A stretch of 64,000 nt of DNA from Bradyrhizobium prioriisuperbiae (GTDB lineage Bacteria; Pseudomonadota; Alphaproteobacteria; Rhizobiales; Xanthobacteraceae). The position numbers were made by a program, and so were the translations under genes. Each line of letters starts with the position of its first letter. Position 1 is the first letter of the stretch. The notes under the pieces were generated by a model. That model did no database searches. It saw nothing but the letters and a program-made list of their open reading frames with translations, and was not told where the DNA came from. This document shows positions 773 through 9,616 of the stretch, piece by piece. The stretch lies in NCBI RefSeq assembly GCF_032397745.1, contig NZ_CP135921.1, positions 7,056,501 through 7,120,500 of the forward strand, given 5' to 3'.

Positions 773-2311
773 TCACCGTCTCTTCGGCCGCTGCACGTGC
801 GAGAGGATATCGGAGGCTTCCAGACTCCCGGCCTCCGCGGCCTTTGCAAGCAGGAGCTTCGCCCCGGGGACGTCCTTGCGGCCACCGATGCCATTGGCCT
901 GGCATCGGGCCAGATTGACCATTCCGGCCGGATCGCCCATCGCCGCACTTTTCTCGTAGAAAGCGCGGGCCTGCTTCAGGTTCCTGGCGCCGGTCCATCC
1001 CTTCTCGGCAAACTCACCCAGCTTGTTGATGGCGCCGGGGTCGCTGAGGTCAGCGGCTTGCCGGAACAGGGCATGGGCCTTGGCGAGATCCTTGGGCCCG
1101 CCCGCGCCGCGCTCGTTCTGGAGACCCAGGCGGACGATGGCGGGCGCGAAATTGATTTTCGCGGCAATCTCATAATAGAACCGCGCCAGTGACGGATCCC
1201 AGCCGACGCCGGTGCCATCGTCATACATGGTGCCGAGAGCGTAGAGCGCGCGTGTATTGCCGAGCTCGAACGCCTTCTTGTAGCTCGCGAGCGCGGACGC
1301 ATAGTCCCGCTTTGCAAACTGCGCGCGTCCGAGCTGATAGTGGAAACGATCGACAGCCGGAAAGCGCCTGACGGCGTCCGTGCACGCCGTGATGGCATCG
1401 ACGACCGTCTCGACCTTCACGATCGCAATGCTTCTGGCCTCGGCGACCCGGGTGGGACCATCCGGCGCGGCCGTGAGTTCATCGCAGGGCTGCGCCACCG
1501 ACGGATCGGACAGATAGGCCTGCTTCACCGCGTTGAGAAAAACCTTGTCCCTGGACAGCTGGCCATACATGTAAGGCGTCTGTTTCTGCTGCGTCGAACT
1601 CCTGACATCGTCGCGCACCTTGCGGAACAGAAAGTTGATTTCGAGGTCCGGCTCGGCCAGGTATTTCAGGATCGCCGCGGCAAACGGGCTGTTGCGCGCC
1701 GCGCCGTCCCCCGACGTCCGATCCTCCGAAATCTTGTCTTCAGAGATCTTGCCGGGTTCGGCCGCAAAGAACACCAGCACGTTCCTGAACGTCTCGGATG
1801 AGCCGGATGCACCGGCCGGGTCTGCACGATCCTGCCGCTCAAGCTTGGCGAACGGATGTCCACGCAATGCGTCAAGGACAACCAGTCCGAGCTTTCGCGC
1901 CTTGGCCACGCCTGACCACACCGCGCGCAGCGGCACAGCCTCGGTCGAGTATGACGACGAGGTTGCAAGCCTGGCATCGACGGGAATGAGATATCCGTCC
2001 ACGCCGGGGTTGACGCTGTAGCCGGCGAAATAGACCAGCGCGATGTCGGCCTTGGCGGCTTTGTCGGAGAACTCACCCAGCGCCGCGCGCAGATCATCAG
2101 CGCTGCCGTCTCGCCGCAGAATGACGTCGAAGCCCAATCCGGTCAGCGCGGCGGCGACATCCTCGGCATCGTTGGCGGGCGTGGCCAGGCCGGGCGCATT
2201 CTTGTAGCTCGAATTGCCAATCACCAGCGCGGCCCGATTGTCGGCGGCACCGGCGCAGGTGTTGACGATCAACTGAAAAACAACAGCGAGTGCGGGCACA
2301 GAAAATCGCAA
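773..2311 (-). CDS. Catalytically dead caspase-fold (peptidase C14) protein with Sel1 repeats
   Basis: This 512-residue protein has a short signal peptide (about residues 1-22, ending CAGAA). A caspase p20-like fold follows: ALVIGNSSY at 28-36, ALVYFAGYSV near 91-100 and GLVVLDALRGHPF near 142-154. In active family members the second block reads FAGHG and the third DACR. Here the His position is Tyr98 and the Cys position is Leu149, so both catalytic residues are missing while the surrounding fold is kept. The region ends with LEINFLFRKVRDDV and YGQLSRDKVFLN, like its neighbour. Residues about 320-500 carry Sel1/TPR-like repeats (ALYALGTMYDDGTGVG, GMVNLARCQANGIGG), a protein-binding solenoid. 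It starts 16 bases after the stop of the active caspase gene, so the two are probably co-transcribed. A scaffold or decoy role is inferred. Confidence 0.85.
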   Translation of the reverse strand: MRFSVPALAVVFQLIVNTCAGAADNRAALVIGNSSYKNAPGLATPANDAEDVAAALTGLGFDVILRRDGSADDLRAALGEFSDKAAKADIALVYFAGYSVNPGVDGYLIPVDARLATSSSYSTEAVPLRAVWSGVAKARKLGLVVLDALRGHPFAKLERQDRADPAGASGSSETFRNVLVFFAAEPGKISEDKISEDRTSGDGAARNSPFAAAILKYLAEPDLEINFLFRKVRDDVRSSTQQKQTPYMYGQLSRDKVFLNAVKQAYLSDPSVAQPCDELTAAPDGPTRVAEARSIAIVKVETVVDAITACTDAVRRFPAVDRFHYQLGRAQFAKRDYASALASYKKAFELGNTRALYALGTMYDDGTGVGWDPSLARFYYEIAAKINFAPAIVRLGLQNERGAGGPKDLAKAHALFRQAADLSDPGAINKLGEFAEKGWTGARNLKQARAFYEKSAAMGDPAGMVNLARCQANGIGGRKDVPGAKLLLAKAAEAGSLEASDILSHVQRPKRR

Positions 2312-2327: not shown

Positions 2328-4856
2328 TCAGTTGGCTGCGCGGGACGAATGCCGCTTCATCCAGTCCCGGTAGGTCAGAAACGCGATCCCCAGCCGGCCA
2401 TAGTCGACCTGCAGATAACCGCTAGCTGCTTGTGACACAGCCGCCGGCCGACGCCTTGCCACCTCCTGTGCCAAAACGCCCACATAGACCGTGGAGTCGC
2501 CGATGTACCTGTAACGATAAAGATGAAGCCCGCCGTCTGTACGCCCCAGCAAGACGATATCCTGCTTCAGGCGGCGGTCCGAGGGAACCCTGATATTGCT
2601 GGCCGCATTGGCTGCGGCCGCAGCCGCGGCTTCAGCCGCCTTCTTGGCAGCTCTGTCCGCCGCACCCGAGGCAGCCCTGGACGCTGCAAAGCCCGCGGCA
2701 TTTGATGCCGCCCGGCCCGCCGCGCTCGATGCCGCGCGACTGGCCGCACTGGAGGCCGCGGTGGACGCCGCACGGCTGGCTGCGCCTGACGCTGCGGTGC
2801 TGGCGGCATGGGCCGCCGCCCGGCTTGCCGCCTGTGACGCCGCCGTGGCTGCAGCCTGGCTGGCCGCATTCGCGGCCGACGTCGCGGCGGCCTGGCTGGC
2901 CGCGGAGACTGCGTTGCTCACGGATGTGGCGACCGTATTGCTGACAACGTTGCTCACCACATTGCCGACAATGTTGCCGACATTCTGATTGACGCGTTCG
3001 ACCGTCTTGCGATAGGCGCGATTGCGCTCGATTTCCTGCGCAGAACGCGTATAGGCCGACACGAGGTAGCCGCGCCGGCGCGCGTCCCGCACCGCATCAG
3101 TCATGCAGCGGTTGCGATTGCGTTCCCGATTTTCGGGAATCCGGCTTTCCAGGATCCGGCAACGCTGGAACTGGAGCTGAACGTAGTCGGGATATTTGGC
3201 GGCCGCTTTGCCACATGCGGCCGCGTCGCCGCCGAAGCAACTGTTGACGTCTTCATCCTGCGCTGTGCGGAGCATCAACTCGGTGGGATCGACCCGCCGC
3301 AGCGCCATGTCGCTGCCGGGCGGCAGGCGATGATGGCGCATGCTGGGATATTTCTCCGCAAAGCGTCCGACCACCTTCTGGTCCCGCGAGTCCCGCAGCA
3401 CCGCCCAGACCTTCTCGATGGAGTCCGCATTTTTTGTCGTTGCGTCAGGCGATGCGCTGTCGAGCTGATAGGTCGACACCGGCGGCTTGGGCAGGTCTAT
3501 CGCAGCGTTACGGGAGGATGACGAGCTGCCGAGCGAAGCCAGCACCGTGCGCGCCTGCTCGACATGTTCGCCCTGGGGGTAGATATCCAGAAAGGCCCGA
3601 TAGGCCGCGGGCGAGCGCTGCTGCTCGACCAGCGTCCATGCGAATTTTTCGGCGCTTTGCAGTTGCTCGATCCGGTCGCCAGCCTCCCTTGCATAGGGGC
3701 TCAGGGGGAATTGCTCCTGGAAACGTCGCAGCGTGGCGATCTCGTTGGTCGAACGCACGAAGGTCCAGGCCACCCTCTCCGCCTCGGCTTCAGCGGCGGC
3801 GGCGGCGACCGCCGCGTCGCCCTTGAGATAGACCTCGTCGTTGGAGAGCGTGCCGTAGATCGCCGGCTGTTGCGTCTTGGTCTCGGCCACAACGTCGTCA
3901 TGGACCATGCGAAACAGATAATTGATCTCGAGGCCGGGCGTCTCCACATGGCGCACCAGCGAACCCGAATACGGACTGTTGCGCCCGGTGCCATCATTGG
4001 CGGTGGTGCCGGCGGCGGCGGCGAACGCCACCAGCACGTTGTCGTTGACATCGACCGGAGCGAGGCCGCGCGCACCCGCATCATCGATCGCAGACGCCGA
4101 TGGGGCCGGATCAGGGCGAGCCGTGGTTGGCGTGCCAGGCTTTGTTGCGTCGGTTCGGGTCGCGTCCCTCGTCTTCGCAGCATTTTTCGCGCCCGGCTTG
4201 GCGCTGGCCAGCGACCGCCGCGCGGCTGCCGTGGCTGAGGCGAAGGGATCGTTGCGGCACGCGTCGAGGATCACGAGGCCAATGACTTTCGGAATCAGGG
4301 AAATATCGATCAGGGTTTCGAGATTGATCGCCTCGGCATAGACGTCGACCTCGGACTTGATCTCGGCATCGACCGGAATCAACCAGTTCCTGCCATCGAT
4401 CTCGACGCCATGGCCGGCGAAAAAGAACACCGCCTTGTCGGCCGTCTTGGCCGCCTTGCCGAACTCGATCAGCGCCAGGCGGAAGGCGTTGTAATCGAGA
4501 TCGTTCAGATGCTTGACGGAAAATCCAAGCCTGGTCAGCGACGCCGCCATGTCCGCCGCGTCATTGACGGGATTGGGCAACTGCACGACCTTGCGATACG
4601 CACTGTTGCCGATGACCAGCGCGATCTTTTGTTCGGTCCTTTGTTCGACTTTTGCGTCGGTCTTTTGTTGTTCGACGTTTGGCTTTGCGTCGTCCTGGGC
4701 CCAGGCCGGATGCGCCGACATCGTTGCCAGCAGCATCACGCCGAGGATTCTGGCGCGCAGCGGGTTCCCCCACACGCAATGGAAGACCCGACGCATCGCG
4801 CGGGTCAGTTCTCCGTCGACCTCCCGCAGCAGCCGAACAGATTGAGGCAGTTCCAT
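2328..4856 (-). CDS. Exported caspase family protein with AASx repeat linker and C-terminal Peptidase_S74 domain
   Basis: The 842-residue product has a signal peptide ending AHPAWAQ at about residue 54. The longest start (4856) is given; a start at 4796 (MRRVFHCVWG) would place the signal peptide at the true N-terminus and has GGAG 14 bases upstream. Residues about 77-360 form a caspase p20/p10-like domain: ALVIGNSAYR, FFFAGHG (His149) and VILDACRND (Cys200), with both catalytic residues intact. Helical repeats with FxxxxPxSP-type motifs follow to about 470. After a basic, Asn-rich segment, residues about 650-754 are some 25 copies of the tetrapeptide AASx. The end (759-842) begins SDRRLKQDI and continues YVGVLAQEV and YLQVDYGRL, which is the Peptidase_S74 intramolecular chaperone of phage tailspikes; Ser759 and Lys764 match its self-cleavage dyad spacing. 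The fusion is unusual; see findings. Confidence 0.88.
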   Translation of the reverse strand: MELPQSVRLLREVDGELTRAMRRVFHCVWGNPLRARILGVMLLATMSAHPAWAQDDAKPNVEQQKTDAKVEQRTEQKIALVIGNSAYRKVVQLPNPVNDAADMAASLTRLGFSVKHLNDLDYNAFRLALIEFGKAAKTADKAVFFFAGHGVEIDGRNWLIPVDAEIKSEVDVYAEAINLETLIDISLIPKVIGLVILDACRNDPFASATAAARRSLASAKPGAKNAAKTRDATRTDATKPGTPTTARPDPAPSASAIDDAGARGLAPVDVNDNVLVAFAAAAGTTANDGTGRNSPYSGSLVRHVETPGLEINYLFRMVHDDVVAETKTQQPAIYGTLSNDEVYLKGDAAVAAAAAEAEAERVAWTFVRSTNEIATLRRFQEQFPLSPYAREAGDRIEQLQSAEKFAWTLVEQQRSPAAYRAFLDIYPQGEHVEQARTVLASLGSSSSSRNAAIDLPKPPVSTYQLDSASPDATTKNADSIEKVWAVLRDSRDQKVVGRFAEKYPSMRHHRLPPGSDMALRRVDPTELMLRTAQDEDVNSCFGGDAAACGKAAAKYPDYVQLQFQRCRILESRIPENRERNRNRCMTDAVRDARRRGYLVSAYTRSAQEIERNRAYRKTVERVNQNVGNIVGNVVSNVVSNTVATSVSNAVSAASQAAATSAANAASQAAATAASQAASRAAAHAASTAASGAASRAASTAASSAASRAASSAAGRAASNAAGFAASRAASGAADRAAKKAAEAAAAAAANAASNIRVPSDRRLKQDIVLLGRTDGGLHLYRYRYIGDSTVYVGVLAQEVARRRPAAVSQAASGYLQVDYGRLGIAFLTYRDWMKRHSSRAAN

Positions 4857-4995: not shown

Positions 4996-5634
4996 TCAAA
5001 CGCCGTCGTAGACGGTCTTGATGCCGGCATGGTCGCCCAGAAAATTGTAATCCCTGGCCACCGCGGCTCGCAAGCCTGCGACAGCATCAGCCCGCACACG
5101 ATATGGCTTGGGCCCTTTCATGAGATCCTGCGTCTCGGCAAGTATCCGGTCGGCGAGCTTCAGTGCTTCCAACTCCGCGCTGCCCGGAATCATCACGCCC
5201 GTCACATAAGTTCCGCCCAGATTGTTTTCACACAGCCTGGCAAACAGCGACCCGGCGAGCCATGCCGCCGCCTCGTCATCGATGGCAAGCACGTAGTTGC
5301 CAGCTTTGGGCCCGGCGAGGTCGAATTGCGCATGGGTCGCCTCGTGCACAATCGCCGCCTGCTCGCTGCGGACGACACTGCCAAAACTCTCGCGTGAAAA
5401 ATGAAACGTGTTGTTTTGCGGATCATACTGGGCCGCGGCGACGTTTCCCGCGGGCAGACTTGCCCGCTGCTGAACGCCGACGGCGCAGGTAATTCTCCCG
5501 GACTCGACGGCCAGTCGCACATTTCCATAGCCCAGGCCTGTCACCCTGAGCCCATTGAGATCGAAATTGATCAACGGCAGCATTGGATTGCAGAGAACAG
5601 ACCTCACCGTCTGTTTGAGAACCTCGTTCGACAC
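4996..5634 (-). CDS. Zincin-like protein with HExxH motif
   Basis: The protein has 212 residues and no clear signal peptide. Residues 92-105 read QAAIVHEATHAQFD, which holds an HExxH zinc-protease motif (His97, Glu98, His101). The segment IDDEAAAWLAG at 118-128 offers Glu121 as a possible third ligand about 20 residues downstream, the arrangement seen in gluzincins. The family is not recognised beyond that. It is the first gene of the minus-strand caspase operon; 139 bases separate it from the caspase start, so co-transcription is likely but not proven. It might process the exported partners or be an unrelated metal-binding protein. The metallopeptidase call rests on motif and local context only. 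Confidence 0.65.
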   Translation of the reverse strand: MSNEVLKQTVRSVLCNPMLPLINFDLNGLRVTGLGYGNVRLAVESGRITCAVGVQQRASLPAGNVAAAQYDPQNNTFHFSRESFGSVVRSEQAAIVHEATHAQFDLAGPKAGNYVLAIDDEAAAWLAGSLFARLCENNLGGTYVTGVMIPGSAELEALKLADRILAETQDLMKGPKPYRVRADAVAGLRAAVARDYNFLGDHAGIKTVYDGV

Positions 5635-6205
5635 CGCGCAGTCTCCATCAGTGGTCAGACGACGAGTGTCCCGAATTCGAAGTCCGTATCAGTTCGCAAA
5701 ACGAATTCGTTTCGCGTCCGGTCGCGCCGGGAGCGGATGCCCCCGTGCTGACGCCGGAATTAAGATGATGGTGCACTTTCCGGCCGCGGGTCATCTCCCA
5801 TATGGGAATGGTGCTGTCATGGAAATCATGTATGTCCACAGTCCAAGCGGACTGCGCCTCACAACTGAGACACCGCAATTTCCATAACAGTGCGGTTGCC
5901 GTGTTGCGCTATCGCGCGGTGTCTTGCGCATCGCCGCGTGCCGCCCCCTTTCCACCTGCGGGCGCCAAAAGGCGCCGCCGCGTCGAGGCTTGGTCGACAA
6001 ACTTCGTCAAATGCCAATCTGAATGAGTCGTTAAATCGCTTAAAACTAGCCTGCGTGCGGTAGCGATGCCGTAACAACTTGGCGGATAGCCTGCACGGCC
6101 GCCGCCGCATTTCGAGCAGCATTCGGCGGATCGATTTGATCGCAGTTTATTCAACAGGCGCCCCGCCGGGCGTCCGGTCGCTGCTCTTTGGATTGGAGCG
6201 TGACA
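5635..6205. other. 571-base divergent intergenic region
   Basis: No convincing gene is present; the short frames here lack ribosome sites and family features. The region separates the minus-strand caspase operon from the plus-strand 1136-residue gene and must hold both promoters. It contains two CGAATTCG palindromes (see separate entry). The part from about 5990 to 6060 is locally AT-richer (GTCGTTAAATCGCTTAAAAC), a plausible promoter area for the downstream gene. Confidence 0.5.
5672..5712. promoter_or_regulatory. Candidate operator: two CGAATTCG palindromes 30 bp apart
   Basis: CGAATTCG occurs at 5672-5679 and again at 5702-5709. The second copy sits inside a perfect 14-base palindrome, AAACGAATTCGTTT (5699-5712). 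The 30-base spacing is about three helical turns, so a dimeric repressor could bind both on one face. The pair lies 38-78 bases upstream of the zincin start. No regulator gene is adjacent. Confidence 0.45.
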
Positions 6206-9200
6206 ATGAGCATTCTCCTTGCTTCCACTGCCACCGCCAACTGGACCAAGCCCCTGCCGAATAACAACATGTTTGGATTCTGCGTTGCTTATGGCCAAGT
6301 GTGGCTGGGTCACGACACTGTCTACGGCTACGATCAGGTGACGGGTGAGCTGCAATATCAGCTAACCGGTTTCAACGGTAACGTCCGTGCGGTGCAGCCG
6401 TTCGACGGCGGGCTGGTGGCGTTGAGCATCGACGGGAATATCTACAAGGCGGATATCGAGGGGAATGCCGCACCTCGCGCATTCGGCCGATACAATACCG
6501 AGCCAGGCTGGGTGCAGTCGCAAGCCGGATCGGTCTATTTCTTCGCTCAGAAGACTGGCGTCTGTCGGATCGCCCCAACCAATGGCGGACAGGTCATCCT
6601 GGACGTGCCCAACAGTGAGATCCAGGACTTCCCGGTGCTGGCACCTGATGCTGTGCTGGTGCCGCGGAAGCCGAACTTCATCGATGTGACCGATCCGCTG
6701 ACACTCGCGATCCGCAGCACGATCACCATCCCCGGCTTGACCATAACCGGTTTTTCCGGCGGAGCGTCGAATGGGCCTGTGACCTTCTTCATTCTGAGAG
6801 AAAAGACGCTGATCGCGCTGGATGCCACGTTGCAAACCATCGCATGGCGTGTCGAGGTCAATGCCAAGCTGACGGTGGCGGCCGCCGCCGACCCGAAATT
6901 CTGCTATGCCGGAACTAGCGATGGCCGCATCTTTGTCTTCGATGCGGTGACCGGCAAGGCGGTGCGGCAGCTTCGGCTCGGCTCAGGGGCGATCAACAGT
7001 ATCTTTCAGGACGATGGGCTTGTGTATGCCGTCTGCACAGAGAAAAACGACACCTTCATCTATGCGGCCGATCCGCAGACCGGAACCGTGATCAAGCACA
7101 GGACCGGTCAGAATGGTTACATCATCGGCATCGACAACGGCGTCGTCTACTACCAGGACATTGGCGCCATCGGCGCCGTCCGCCTCGCCGACATCGTGCG
7201 CGAATTCTATGCCGAGTCGGTTCTGGTGCAGGACTTCGCCTTCGCGAGCGGCAATGAAACGAAGAAGCCCAGCGTCCACTCCGAGATCACTCTTTACGAC
7301 CGCAGCGGCAGTCCATGGGCGACGCAGACTGTGATGGTCGGTTGCACCAGCCCAATCACGATCAAGAGCGGCGGTGTCTCTTTCAATATCGACGCCAAGA
7401 CCGCCGCGCCGCTCAAGACCGACAGCACCGGAAAGCTGCGTATCGACATGCCGGCCGGGGATGTCGATTCCAAAGGCGTGTTCCGCAGCGGCCTGACGAG
7501 CCCCGCGTTGACATTGCTCACAAGCTTCATGGACCCCGACGACCGGGTTCTGGTGCGGCCGGACGCGCAGCTCCACGATGAGCTCGGAAAAGTGACGCAG
7601 GCGCGACTGCAAACCGCCAAGGGCTACGACGGCAATCTCATTGTGGTGGATAAATACCGCAAGGACAACAAGATCATGACCAACGTCGCGGGCATGATCG
7701 GCGCGACCAGCAGTATGGTAAAGGACTCGCTCGAAAACAGAAAGACGCTGCTGGCGGCGGCCGGCAAGCGTTACCTCGCGCCCGGCTGCGACATGGGGAC
7801 CATTTGCTGCTGCAAGGCCGGCAACTACCAATGCAAGCTCGTCTGCAACAGGGCGTTCGCATTCGATCTCGATCCGGCGCGTTCGACCTTCGGCTATTTC
7901 GGCAGCAAGCAGGACATCGAACGCTGGCTCAAGGATCATCCGGTGAGCCATGAAAACCTGCTGATGTCGTGGGGCGACTTTTGGGATGCGGTGAAAAGCG
8001 GAGCCGCCAAGGTCAAGAACGCCATCGTCTATGCCGCCAGGCAGGTCGAGCATGCGGCCAAGGATGTGGTCAAGACCGTTGTCACGGCTGTCATCAACGG
8101 CATCGAAAGGACGATGGACTTCGTCGTCGACACGGTCGAACACGCGATTGGCATCATCCACGGCATCTTCAACGAGATCGTCGGCGCCATCGACAAGGTG
8201 CTGGAAACCCTCAGCCTGATTTTCAACTGGGACGGCATCGTCAGCCTCAAAAACGACATCAAGGCGAATATTGGCAAGGCCTTCGACCGGCTGCTCAAGC
8301 CGCAGACCGAGGGCGGCAAGAGCCTGCTCACGCAGGCGCGCGAGAAGGGTGACCAGGCCTTCGCGGACATGCGCAGCAAGCTCAACCGCGCGCTGGACGA
8401 CCTCGACGACCGTATCGGCAAGCAGTCGGGCAGCGGTGTGCAGCAACACAACGCCGGCCCGAACAGTCCCGCCAAGGGCGGGGCCAGCTCGAACTGGCTG
8501 CAGTCGAAGATGAACGACAATCTTCTGAGCGAGCAGGCGATCAAGACCCATGCCCTGGCCGCGGCTCCCGGTTCGGCGATCCACATTCCCGCGTTCACAC
8601 TGCCAGGCGATCTGCAGAACGAGATTTCGCGGTTCGTGGACGATCTTCAGGGCCGGGTGACCGGCGACGTCAAGACCTCGCTGGATCGGCTGAAAAGCGC
8701 ACTGGGGCCGTCGAACGACGACCTGTTCGCCCAGAGCTTCCATTTCTTCCTGGAACTGGTACGCGGCGCCATCAATGTGGGCCTGGATATCCTCGCCGCG
8801 GTATTCGACGGCGCCATGCGCCTGCTGGAGAAAATCCTTGCGGCTGCATGGTCGTATATCCGCGACGAGACCATTACGATCCCGTTCGTATCCGATCTCT
8901 ACCGATCCCTGACCAGGAGCGACCTGACCGGCCTCGATCTGGCTTGTCTGCTGGTGGCGGTGCCGGCCTCGCTGGCGATCGCGGCCGTCTCCAGCGGCCG
9001 TCGTGCGCTCGCCGGTGCCGCGCAGCTATCCGGCATCCTGGGAGGCGTCGCGCAAATCGTCTGGTCAATGGTCAGTGCCGGGGTCGGGGCGCTGAGCGCC
9101 ACGGTCGCCGATAAGCTGACGGCGCTTTCCCCCACCGCGAAGGTCATATTTGGTGCCATTCGCGGTTTGCTGCTCGCAAGCTTCGGGCTGGCAGCGCGTG

Positions 9201-9616
9201 GCTTGCTCCTATGGTCCGACATCGAGACCAATGAGGGAAACGACGATGCGCTGGCCATCAATACCATCCTGTGGTGTTTTCCCACCCTCGCGGTCCTCGC
9301 CGATCTGGTCGCCAATCCGCTCGCCCTTGCGTTCTCAGGGATCGGTATCGCCGAGGGGACGGCGATCATCGTGTGTGTCTTCGGCCTATGCTTAGGCGTT
9401 TTTCTAGCCCTCTTCGCCATCTACGGAAGGATGAAGGCCCCGATGGCGATTACGTTCAACGCGCTTGTGGCGGCGGGATTGATCGTACGGCTTGGGACGG
9501 TCTTCGAACCGCTGTGGGTCAAGCTGGTCGCGGTCGTGCTGGGCGGCGGGTTCATCTGCGCGTCAGGCGTGGTGAAAGTCATCGACGCCTCGGGCGTTGC
9601 CGCCGCCCCCGCGTAG
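6206..9616 (+). CDS. Large beta-propeller / amphipathic-helix / multi-TM protein of unknown function
   Basis: The ATG at 6206 has GGAG seven bases upstream, giving 1136 residues. Residues about 10-335 are PQQ/WD-like beta-propeller repeats (VYGYDQVTGELQYQL, RIFVFDAVTGKAVRQL, FIYAADPQTGTVIKH). An extracellular-type beta domain follows to about 500, then a Cys-rich knot near 540 (CDMGTICCCKAGNYQCKLVC). Residues about 595-690 are amphipathic helices rich in Val, Ile and charged residues (VKNAIVYAARQVEHAAKDVV), followed by a charged linker. From about 900 to the end there are several hydrophobic helices (LACLLVAVPASLAIAAV, VFGLCLGVFLALFAIY). No Sec signal peptide is evident. The family is not recognised. 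Helix-rich and membrane-spanning ends suggest a membrane-acting or pore-like protein whose propeller binds a ligand or partner; that is inference. It is divergent from the caspase operon and its stop abuts a truncated permease. Confidence 0.7.
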   Translation: MSILLASTATANWTKPLPNNNMFGFCVAYGQVWLGHDTVYGYDQVTGELQYQLTGFNGNVRAVQPFDGGLVALSIDGNIYKADIEGNAAPRAFGRYNTEPGWVQSQAGSVYFFAQKTGVCRIAPTNGGQVILDVPNSEIQDFPVLAPDAVLVPRKPNFIDVTDPLTLAIRSTITIPGLTITGFSGGASNGPVTFFILREKTLIALDATLQTIAWRVEVNAKLTVAAAADPKFCYAGTSDGRIFVFDAVTGKAVRQLRLGSGAINSIFQDDGLVYAVCTEKNDTFIYAADPQTGTVIKHRTGQNGYIIGIDNGVVYYQDIGAIGAVRLADIVREFYAESVLVQDFAFASGNETKKPSVHSEITLYDRSGSPWATQTVMVGCTSPITIKSGGVSFNIDAKTAAPLKTDSTGKLRIDMPAGDVDSKGVFRSGLTSPALTLLTSFMDPDDRVLVRPDAQLHDELGKVTQARLQTAKGYDGNLIVVDKYRKDNKIMTNVAGMIGATSSMVKDSLENRKTLLAAAGKRYLAPGCDMGTICCCKAGNYQCKLVCNRAFAFDLDPARSTFGYFGSKQDIERWLKDHPVSHENLLMSWGDFWDAVKSGAAKVKNAIVYAARQVEHAAKDVVKTVVTAVINGIERTMDFVVDTVEHAIGIIHGIFNEIVGAIDKVLETLSLIFNWDGIVSLKNDIKANIGKAFDRLLKPQTEGGKSLLTQAREKGDQAFADMRSKLNRALDDLDDRIGKQSGSGVQQHNAGPNSPAKGGASSNWLQSKMNDNLLSEQAIKTHALAAAPGSAIHIPAFTLPGDLQNEISRFVDDLQGRVTGDVKTSLDRLKSALGPSNDDLFAQSFHFFLELVRGAINVGLDILAAVFDGAMRLLEKILAAAWSYIRDETITIPFVSDLYRSLTRSDLTGLDLACLLVAVPASLAIAAVSSGRRALAGAAQLSGILGGVAQIVWSMVSAGVGALSATVADKLTALSPTAKVIFGAIRGLLLASFGLAARGLLLWSDIETNEGNDDALAINTILWCFPTLAVLADLVANPLALAFSGIGIAEGTAIIVCVFGLCLGVFLALFAIYGRMKAPMAITFNALVAAGLIVRLGTVFEPLWVKLVAVVLGGGFICASGVVKVIDASGVAAAPA

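Follow-up and report, generated by a model that had tools for sequence, protein, structure and literature searches.

Organisation of the locus

The region described here is a 64,000-nucleotide stretch of the Bradyrhizobium prioriisuperbiae genome (contig NZ_CP135921.1, positions 7,056,501 to 7,120,500), referred to below as the window, and its source contig represents a single-contig genome of 9.08 Mb. Two adjoining genes are the subject of this analysis: one encodes a caspase with an intact catalytic dyad, an Ala/Ser-rich stalk and a short C-terminal Peptidase_S74 (S74) domain, hereafter caspase-S74, and the other encodes a caspase homologue with Sel1 repeats whose dyad has been lost (Table 1). 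The caspase-S74 gene is a single open reading frame (ORF) that fills positions 2328 to 4856 exactly, on the minus strand, and codes for 842 amino acids (aa) counted from an ATG codon; its true start may lie downstream of this ATG, since most relatives are gapped opposite the first 20 residues. The partner gene starts 16 bases downstream of the caspase-S74 stop codon, and an earlier note on this DNA, which had dealt with the caspase-S74 protein, mentioned neither the minus strand nor this adjoining gene.

Table 1. Features of the caspase-S74 locus, with positions in the window
Feature	Positions	Strand	Evidence
Caspase-S74 gene, 842 aa	2328..4856	-	ORF and translation; 70 further entries share the tail
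Signal-peptide-like N-terminus, about residues 21-60	4677..4796	-	Hydrophobic run at residues 37-47; relatives begin alike
Caspase (PF00656) domain, residues 77-338	3843..4628	-	Profile match; invariant His149 and Cys200; Foldseek
Helical middle, residues 348-595	3072..3815	-	AlphaFold2 helices
Val/Ser/Asn, then Ala/Ser tetrapeptide stalk, residues 626-758	2583..2981	-	Period-4 autocorrelation
Short S74 domain, residues 759-842, with Ser759 and Lys764	2331..2582	-	Profile, conservation, model and fold match
Partner pseudo-caspase of 512 aa with TTG start, Sel1 repeats and a signal-peptide-like N-terminus	773..2311	-	PF00656, PF08238

The caspase domain is recognised by its profile (E=5.3e-36, 124.9 bits), and its best Foldseek match is the paracaspase MALT1 (E 2.3e-8); the AlphaFold2 model of this domain is poor at residues 151-290, with a block predicted local distance difference test (pLDDT) of 28-58. 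The His149/Cys200 dyad is intact, as the earlier note had read it, and both residues are invariant in 69/69 aligned sequences, the window's own counted, as are Ser759, Asp760 and Lys764 (the alignment being a selection out of 81 S74-tailed entries). By its profile and its His/Cys dyad the protein is an orthocaspase. The proposal that it is exported agrees with a signal-peptide-like start, called by a simple hydrophobicity heuristic. The middle region is modelled as helices with block pLDDT of 83-96 (residues 351-440) and 62-94 (residues 471-590). The Ala/Ser tetrapeptide repeat described earlier is clear in the autocorrelation of residues 601-758, where identity reaches 0.48-0.50 at lags 4, 8 and 12 versus 0.09-0.27 at the remaining lags from 1 to 14; between 4 and 30 AASx units are found per stalk across 71 sequences, and the stalk is modelled, at low confidence, as a helix. 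Both profiles that the earlier note had suggested as a check, PF00656 and PF13884 (Peptidase_S74), were matched, the latter over residues 759-807 and barely above its curated cut-off (22.6 versus 22 bits, E=1.4e-4); the S74 part of caspase-S74 scored 27.5 bits in a genome search.

The pseudo-caspase partner

The partner protein matches PF00656 (E=5.1e-31) and the Sel1 profile PF08238 (E=3.2e-21), and its catalytic residues are replaced, His by Tyr98 and Cys by Leu149, which makes it a pseudo-orthocaspase. A scan of species genomes provided a locus set made of the best 80 of 400 confirmed matches, and the caspase-S74 ORF is present in 12 of the fetched loci; the pseudo-caspase is the next gene downstream in 12/12 of them, on the same strand and overlapping or at most 20 bases apart. 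When the window is included, the dyad is lost in 13/13 partners and intact in 13/13 caspases. As a control, such neighbours were searched for by BLAST at E 1e-12 in the 67 loci that hold other caspases (L016-L082) and had been obtained in part with a pattern for intact caspases; none had an adjacent lost-dyad caspase, the neighbour in L030 being truncated by the contig end. A scan of 296 genomes of the family, in which only some candidates were scored per genome (18 and 5), found an S74 match of at least 148 bits in a frame of at least 749 aa in six genomes, and in 6/6 of these a partner match lies 5-62 bases away on the same strand; this result gives no independent support, since the six are the window's genome and five that correspond to loci L003, L004, L005, L007 and L012. 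The partner was matched in nine genomes, among them one with the pair lacking S74 (G148), one in which the match is an active caspase (G022) and one whose contig ends at the partner (G013). The distribution of the pair is sparse, and it occurs in 1/3 genomes of its genus; another carrier is B. yuanmingense CCBAU 10071 (L012).

The pair is independent of S74, because in one Rhodoplanes metagenome-assembled genome (MAG; L015) it occurs with another tail and with a partner whose dyad reads His-Ser. Among the 120 matches listed for the partner, the 103 nearest entries (the partner itself counted, the cut being a chosen one) lack the Cys in 97 of the 98 that are readable at this position, and 72 have Tyr-Leu or Tyr-Met, whereas 16 of the next 17 entries have His-Cys. 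The ratio of nonsynonymous to synonymous substitution (dN/dS) is 0.12-0.28 for the partner in eight pairs, close to the 0.11-0.22 of caspase-S74 in eight pairs, which indicates purifying selection on the latter; some of the pairs are close to saturated in synonymous change. As judged from these sequences, the partner is a maintained pseudo-enzyme and not a pseudogene.

Tandem arrays of intact caspases exist as well: four consecutive His/Cys caspase ORFs are found in an Oricola MAG (L038:7659-15710), and tandem intact caspases are also present in Bradyrhizobium loci, for example L053 and L059. Just upstream of the caspase-S74 gene, the window holds a 212-aa ORF with a HEATH (HExxH-like) motif (4996-5634, minus strand), which was considered as a third operon member and set aside, having no Pfam match and no counterpart in 12 related loci. 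A 1142-aa ORF lies on the opposite strand, upstream of the caspase genes (6188-9616, plus strand).

The family of S74-tailed caspases

A protein search with caspase-S74 returned at least 4354 proteins at E <0.001, of which 120 were examined. The stalk-and-S74 tail is present in 71 of these 120, the window's own entry and one caspase-less fragment included, and the named relatives come from Bradyrhizobium, Xanthobacteraceae, Hyphomicrobiales and metagenomes. Ten more caspases among the matches listed (P0075-P0085 except P0084) combine S74 with ricin-type lectin repeats, and related caspases without S74 make up much of the same list. The fusion of caspase and S74 is more than a chance event, because 70 further entries share the tail and the gene is under purifying selection. 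In a single scan of viral contigs, no sequence related to the caspase turned up.

In a tree of 71 caspase domains (24 of the stalk type, 10 of the ricin type and 37 without S74; midpoint-rooted for drawing only), the stalk-type and ricin-type S74 caspases form separate supported clades with S74-less caspases in between. This sequence-based topology suggests that caspases either gained the S74 tail twice or gained it and then lost it. Two proteins, P0072 and P0073, are sister to the stalk type and have a C-terminal Val/Pro/Lys repeat in place of S74. In the caspase P0095, the Ala/Ser stalk stops at the expected S74 start (...AASRVRVPGR), which may be a natural S74-less form or a frame error.

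Anatomy of the short S74 domain

In the caspase fusions, 81-106 residues separate the Ser of the S74 domain from the C-terminus. The Ser/Lys pair that opens the domain with a spacing of five residues, on which the earlier note had based its self-cleavage proposal, is retained in the whole alignment of 69 and again in 201/201 of a wider set of proteins with a domain hit; this wider set has nine invariant positions, the Ser, Asp and Lys included, and the invariant block starts at the Ser. The AlphaFold2 model is well defined at residues 761-830 (block pLDDT 85-94) and shows strands (764-772, 778-784 and 790-793) and a helix (796-802).

S74 domains of known structure are trimeric, and cutting depends on the trimer in MyRF, endosialidase and T5 pb1, as stated in portions of PMC8326128 and PMC4690869. 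MyRF is cut between P586 and S587, and S587A or K592A abolishes cutting; Y615A and Y617A jointly stop cutting at the P586-S587 site, whereas R590A and Q639A yield extra cut sites, and its alpha4 coiled coil of 36 residues drives trimer formation (portions of PMC8326128). In an alignment with the MyRF profile, a weak match (E 0.0068), the corresponding residues here are P758, S759, K764, Y782, Y784, R762 and Q797. Because the residues of the MyRF cleavage centre all have counterparts, the cleavage chemistry looks intact. The helices of the trimer are another matter: alpha1 falls in a gap of the same alignment, and the alpha4 position is reduced to a turn at 819-822 followed by a short helix at 829-835. 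The alpha1 collar and alpha4 coiled coil of the S74/intramolecular chaperone auto-processing (ICA) trimer are absent from sequence and model, and the domain is for this reason called a short variant and not a canonical S74 member.

A check of the C-terminal fold had been proposed in the earlier note, and its outcome is divided. Predicted phage ICA proteins match the model, the two best named viral folds superposing at 0.7 and 0.8 Å over 72 and 67 columns (best E 4.4e-7). Among solved structures in the PDB, Foldseek gave nothing significant and no S74 domain among the 50 rows listed, which were mostly kinases; MyRF is the best of the weak rows in the solved-structure comparison. A single-chain model may not reproduce the intertwined chains of trimeric S74 members.

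The same module on unrelated exported proteins

The short S74 domain is not restricted to caspases. When the S74 portion of an unrelated protein (L095), encoded in a different genome of the family, was used as the query, 492 proteins matched, of which 120 were examined. Some examples of carriers among the matches listed are outer-membrane beta-barrels (PF13505), Wza-like polysaccharide-export proteins (PF02563/SLBB), FecR, RTX and PF13946 proteins, and others, four of the carriers from this search being confirmed with Pfam. DUF3300 proteins with a Gly-rich linker also end in a short S74 (SD...LK) in L087-L093, L096, L098 and L099, which span four genus codes; the assignment was made by Pfam in L087, and the nine others look alike by eye. 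A minimal carrier is a protein of 148 aa (L097:4955-5401) composed of an Arg-Arg N-terminus, which we take to be Tat-like, a Thr/Pro-rich linker and a short S74. Six of the 120 other carriers have an Ala/Ser stalk, so the combination of stalk and S74 is not confined to caspases.

A hydrophobic run occurs within the first 70 residues of 93/120 other carriers versus 10/120 in an internal stretch, and the motif lies 78-190 residues from the C-terminus, with a median of 86 (119/120 proteins by a crude pattern, some matches of which lie upstream of the true domain; P0203 has no motif). The module is found in 58/296 genomes of the family (E 1e-8) and in 36/249 genomes of the order (E 1e-10), phage-type copies counted. 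Known members of some carrier families are not trimers, the beta-barrel relatives being monomers and the Wza-like proteins octamers. Since the module is also carried by beta-barrels and Wza-like proteins, trimer assembly is unlikely to be its common job.

Relation to phage proteins

The earlier note had derived the domain from a tailspike chaperone. This origin is not supported: the best phage families are phrog_6121 (virion structural) and phrog_4287 (DNA ejection), tail-fibre families reach only E 0.07 or weaker, and an Ala/Ser stalk stands where a tailspike or fibre would have a triple beta-helix or receptor-binding region. The likeness to these phage families and to the BFVD entries 'Intramolecular chaperone auto-processing domain containing protein' lies in the same short domain. 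The window's genome itself encodes a phage-type protein (L001) whose short S74 is 35% identical. The cellular form differs in its ending, LGL..LT..W, which is absent from L001, and many frames of 330-440 aa match the model only up to position 67.

Interpretation

We tentatively favour, as the best explanation, a two-gene operon that would encode an exported intact orthocaspase and an exported Sel1 pseudo-caspase acting together, with a self-cutting, mobile S74 cassette on the active enzyme. The two genes would be co-transcribed, and the two caspases most likely cooperate in the envelope, where the dead one would act as a scaffold or as an allosteric partner. The cassette on the active caspase would consist of the Ala/Ser stalk closed by the short phage-type S74. 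After export, S74 would fold, and Ser759, activated by Lys764, would cut the Pro758-Ser759 bond, so that a fragment of roughly 9 kDa is freed and the mature caspase-stalk remains; on unrelated surface proteins the same module may serve as a C-terminal processing tag.

What weighs against this explanation is that the trimer machinery needed for cutting in MyRF, endosialidase and T5 pb1 is missing, so that the short form would have to cut with no coiled coil to help it, unless its conserved residues serve the folding of a cap that does not cut. Such a cap would plug the C-terminus as a folded unit by which exported proteins are held or sorted at the surface, and Ser and Lys would be conserved for the sake of the fold; it fits a module placed near the C-terminus of unrelated envelope proteins, the missing helices, and the six further positions whose invariance equals that of Ser, Asp and Lys, and we regard it as possible, if doubtful. 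It does not account for an invariant block that begins at the Ser, nor for the retention of the MyRF cleavage-centre residues as a set. Cutting is moderately favoured, because the scissile residue is the first of the block and carriers that are otherwise dissimilar have kept the reaction centre. Far harder to credit is that the domain has no function and remains from a phage gene that happened to become fused: the phage-type protein with a related short S74 in the same genome speaks for it, but the residues are invariant in 201 proteins, caspases have likely acquired the tail more than once, and the whole gene is under purifying selection.

According to the earlier note, S74 trimerises the stalk and unites three caspase domains, which proximity then activates, release of the chaperone being irreversible. 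That S74 domains of known structure are trimeric, that Ser and Lys are retained, and that the caspase domain resembles MALT1, which is activated by dimerisation, all speak for it. Against it stand the reduction of alpha4 and absence of alpha1, the lack of a triple beta-helix upstream, the module's presence on beta-barrel and Wza-like proteins and the many related caspases that do without S74; proximity activation through trimerisation is conceivable, but the anatomy lends it no support, and we consider this account improbable. Another proposal, which we judge quite improbable, is that the caspase trims its own stalk and S74 merely marks or caps the end. Orthocaspases cleave after basic residues (part of PMC6426788), and many AASx units have Arg or Lys at their fourth position: the last 110 residues before S74 in 70 sequences (7700 residues) contain 709 Arg+Lys versus 93 Asp+Glu, and position 4 of the tetrad is N in 276 cases, R in 180, S in 122 and K in 105. 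However, the window's own 133-residue stalk holds only 9 Arg+Lys, a basic stalk might just as well serve to bind anionic polymers of the surface, and the conservation of Ser and Lys would be left unexplained.

Returning to the favoured operon, the dead partner, which is conserved, makes a more direct candidate than trimerisation for controlling the caspase, as gene neighbourhood alone would suggest. A broader and more speculative proposal, to which we give little weight, is that the exported proteins of Hyphomicrobiales share a general self-cleaving C-terminal module of phage descent. It would work without a coiled coil, a Trp cap replacing the trimer coil, and would have moved between barrels, polysaccharide exporters, DUF3300 proteins and caspases, the last of these probably on two occasions; in one lineage the module would mature an exported caspase controlled by an operon-encoded dead caspase, in the manner of caspase-8 and cFLIP. 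If the short module does cut itself, S74 autoprocessing would take place without the coiled coil held necessary for the reaction, and the module would be a maturation tag for surface proteins of which no description was found in the literature searched. The active/dead gene pair would make the control of a protease by a pseudo-protease in the envelope tractable in a bacterium.

Comparison with known systems

S74 domains, orthocaspases and Rhizobiales pseudo-orthocaspases are each known already. No text combining 'caspase' and 'Peptidase_S74' was found in the open-access literature searched, and the titles and abstract starts listed there contained nothing on S74 caspases, a short S74 tag of exported proteins or an active/dead caspase pair. 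The main text of PMC6426788 has no occurrence of 'operon', and that of PMC3501461 none of S74 or endosialidase. A 'tail fiber domain-containing protein' is listed among the outer-membrane proteins of Liberibacter crescens in a portion of PMC9548881. As to membership of an anti-phage system, PADLOC gave only a weak match for caspase-S74 (PDLC02987 'caspase', E=2.8e-4) and none for the partner.

The closest likeness of the domain outside phages is to MyRF (portions of PMC8326128), with which the weak alignment shares the P|SD...K site, a Tyr-Arg-Tyr strand and G-V-x-A-Q-[ED]-V; MyRF, in contrast, has alpha1 and the long alpha4 coil, whereas here alpha1 is missing, alpha4 is a stub and the domain is terminal, and of the two cleavage has been demonstrated for MyRF only. 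Caspase-S74 resembles alphaproteobacterial orthocaspases in its signal-peptide-like start, His/Cys dyad and caspase profile, and differs from them in the S74-capped tail and the neighbouring pseudo-caspase. The partner, in turn, resembles the Rhizobiales pseudo-orthocaspases, which have lost the His-Cys dyad, with Tyr in place of His, and in one class carry tetratricopeptide repeats; the common dyads given for them in the part of PMC6426788 consulted are YS, YA, FS, QC and HA, whereas the partners described here have mainly YL or YM, carry Sel1 repeats and stand beside an active caspase-S74.
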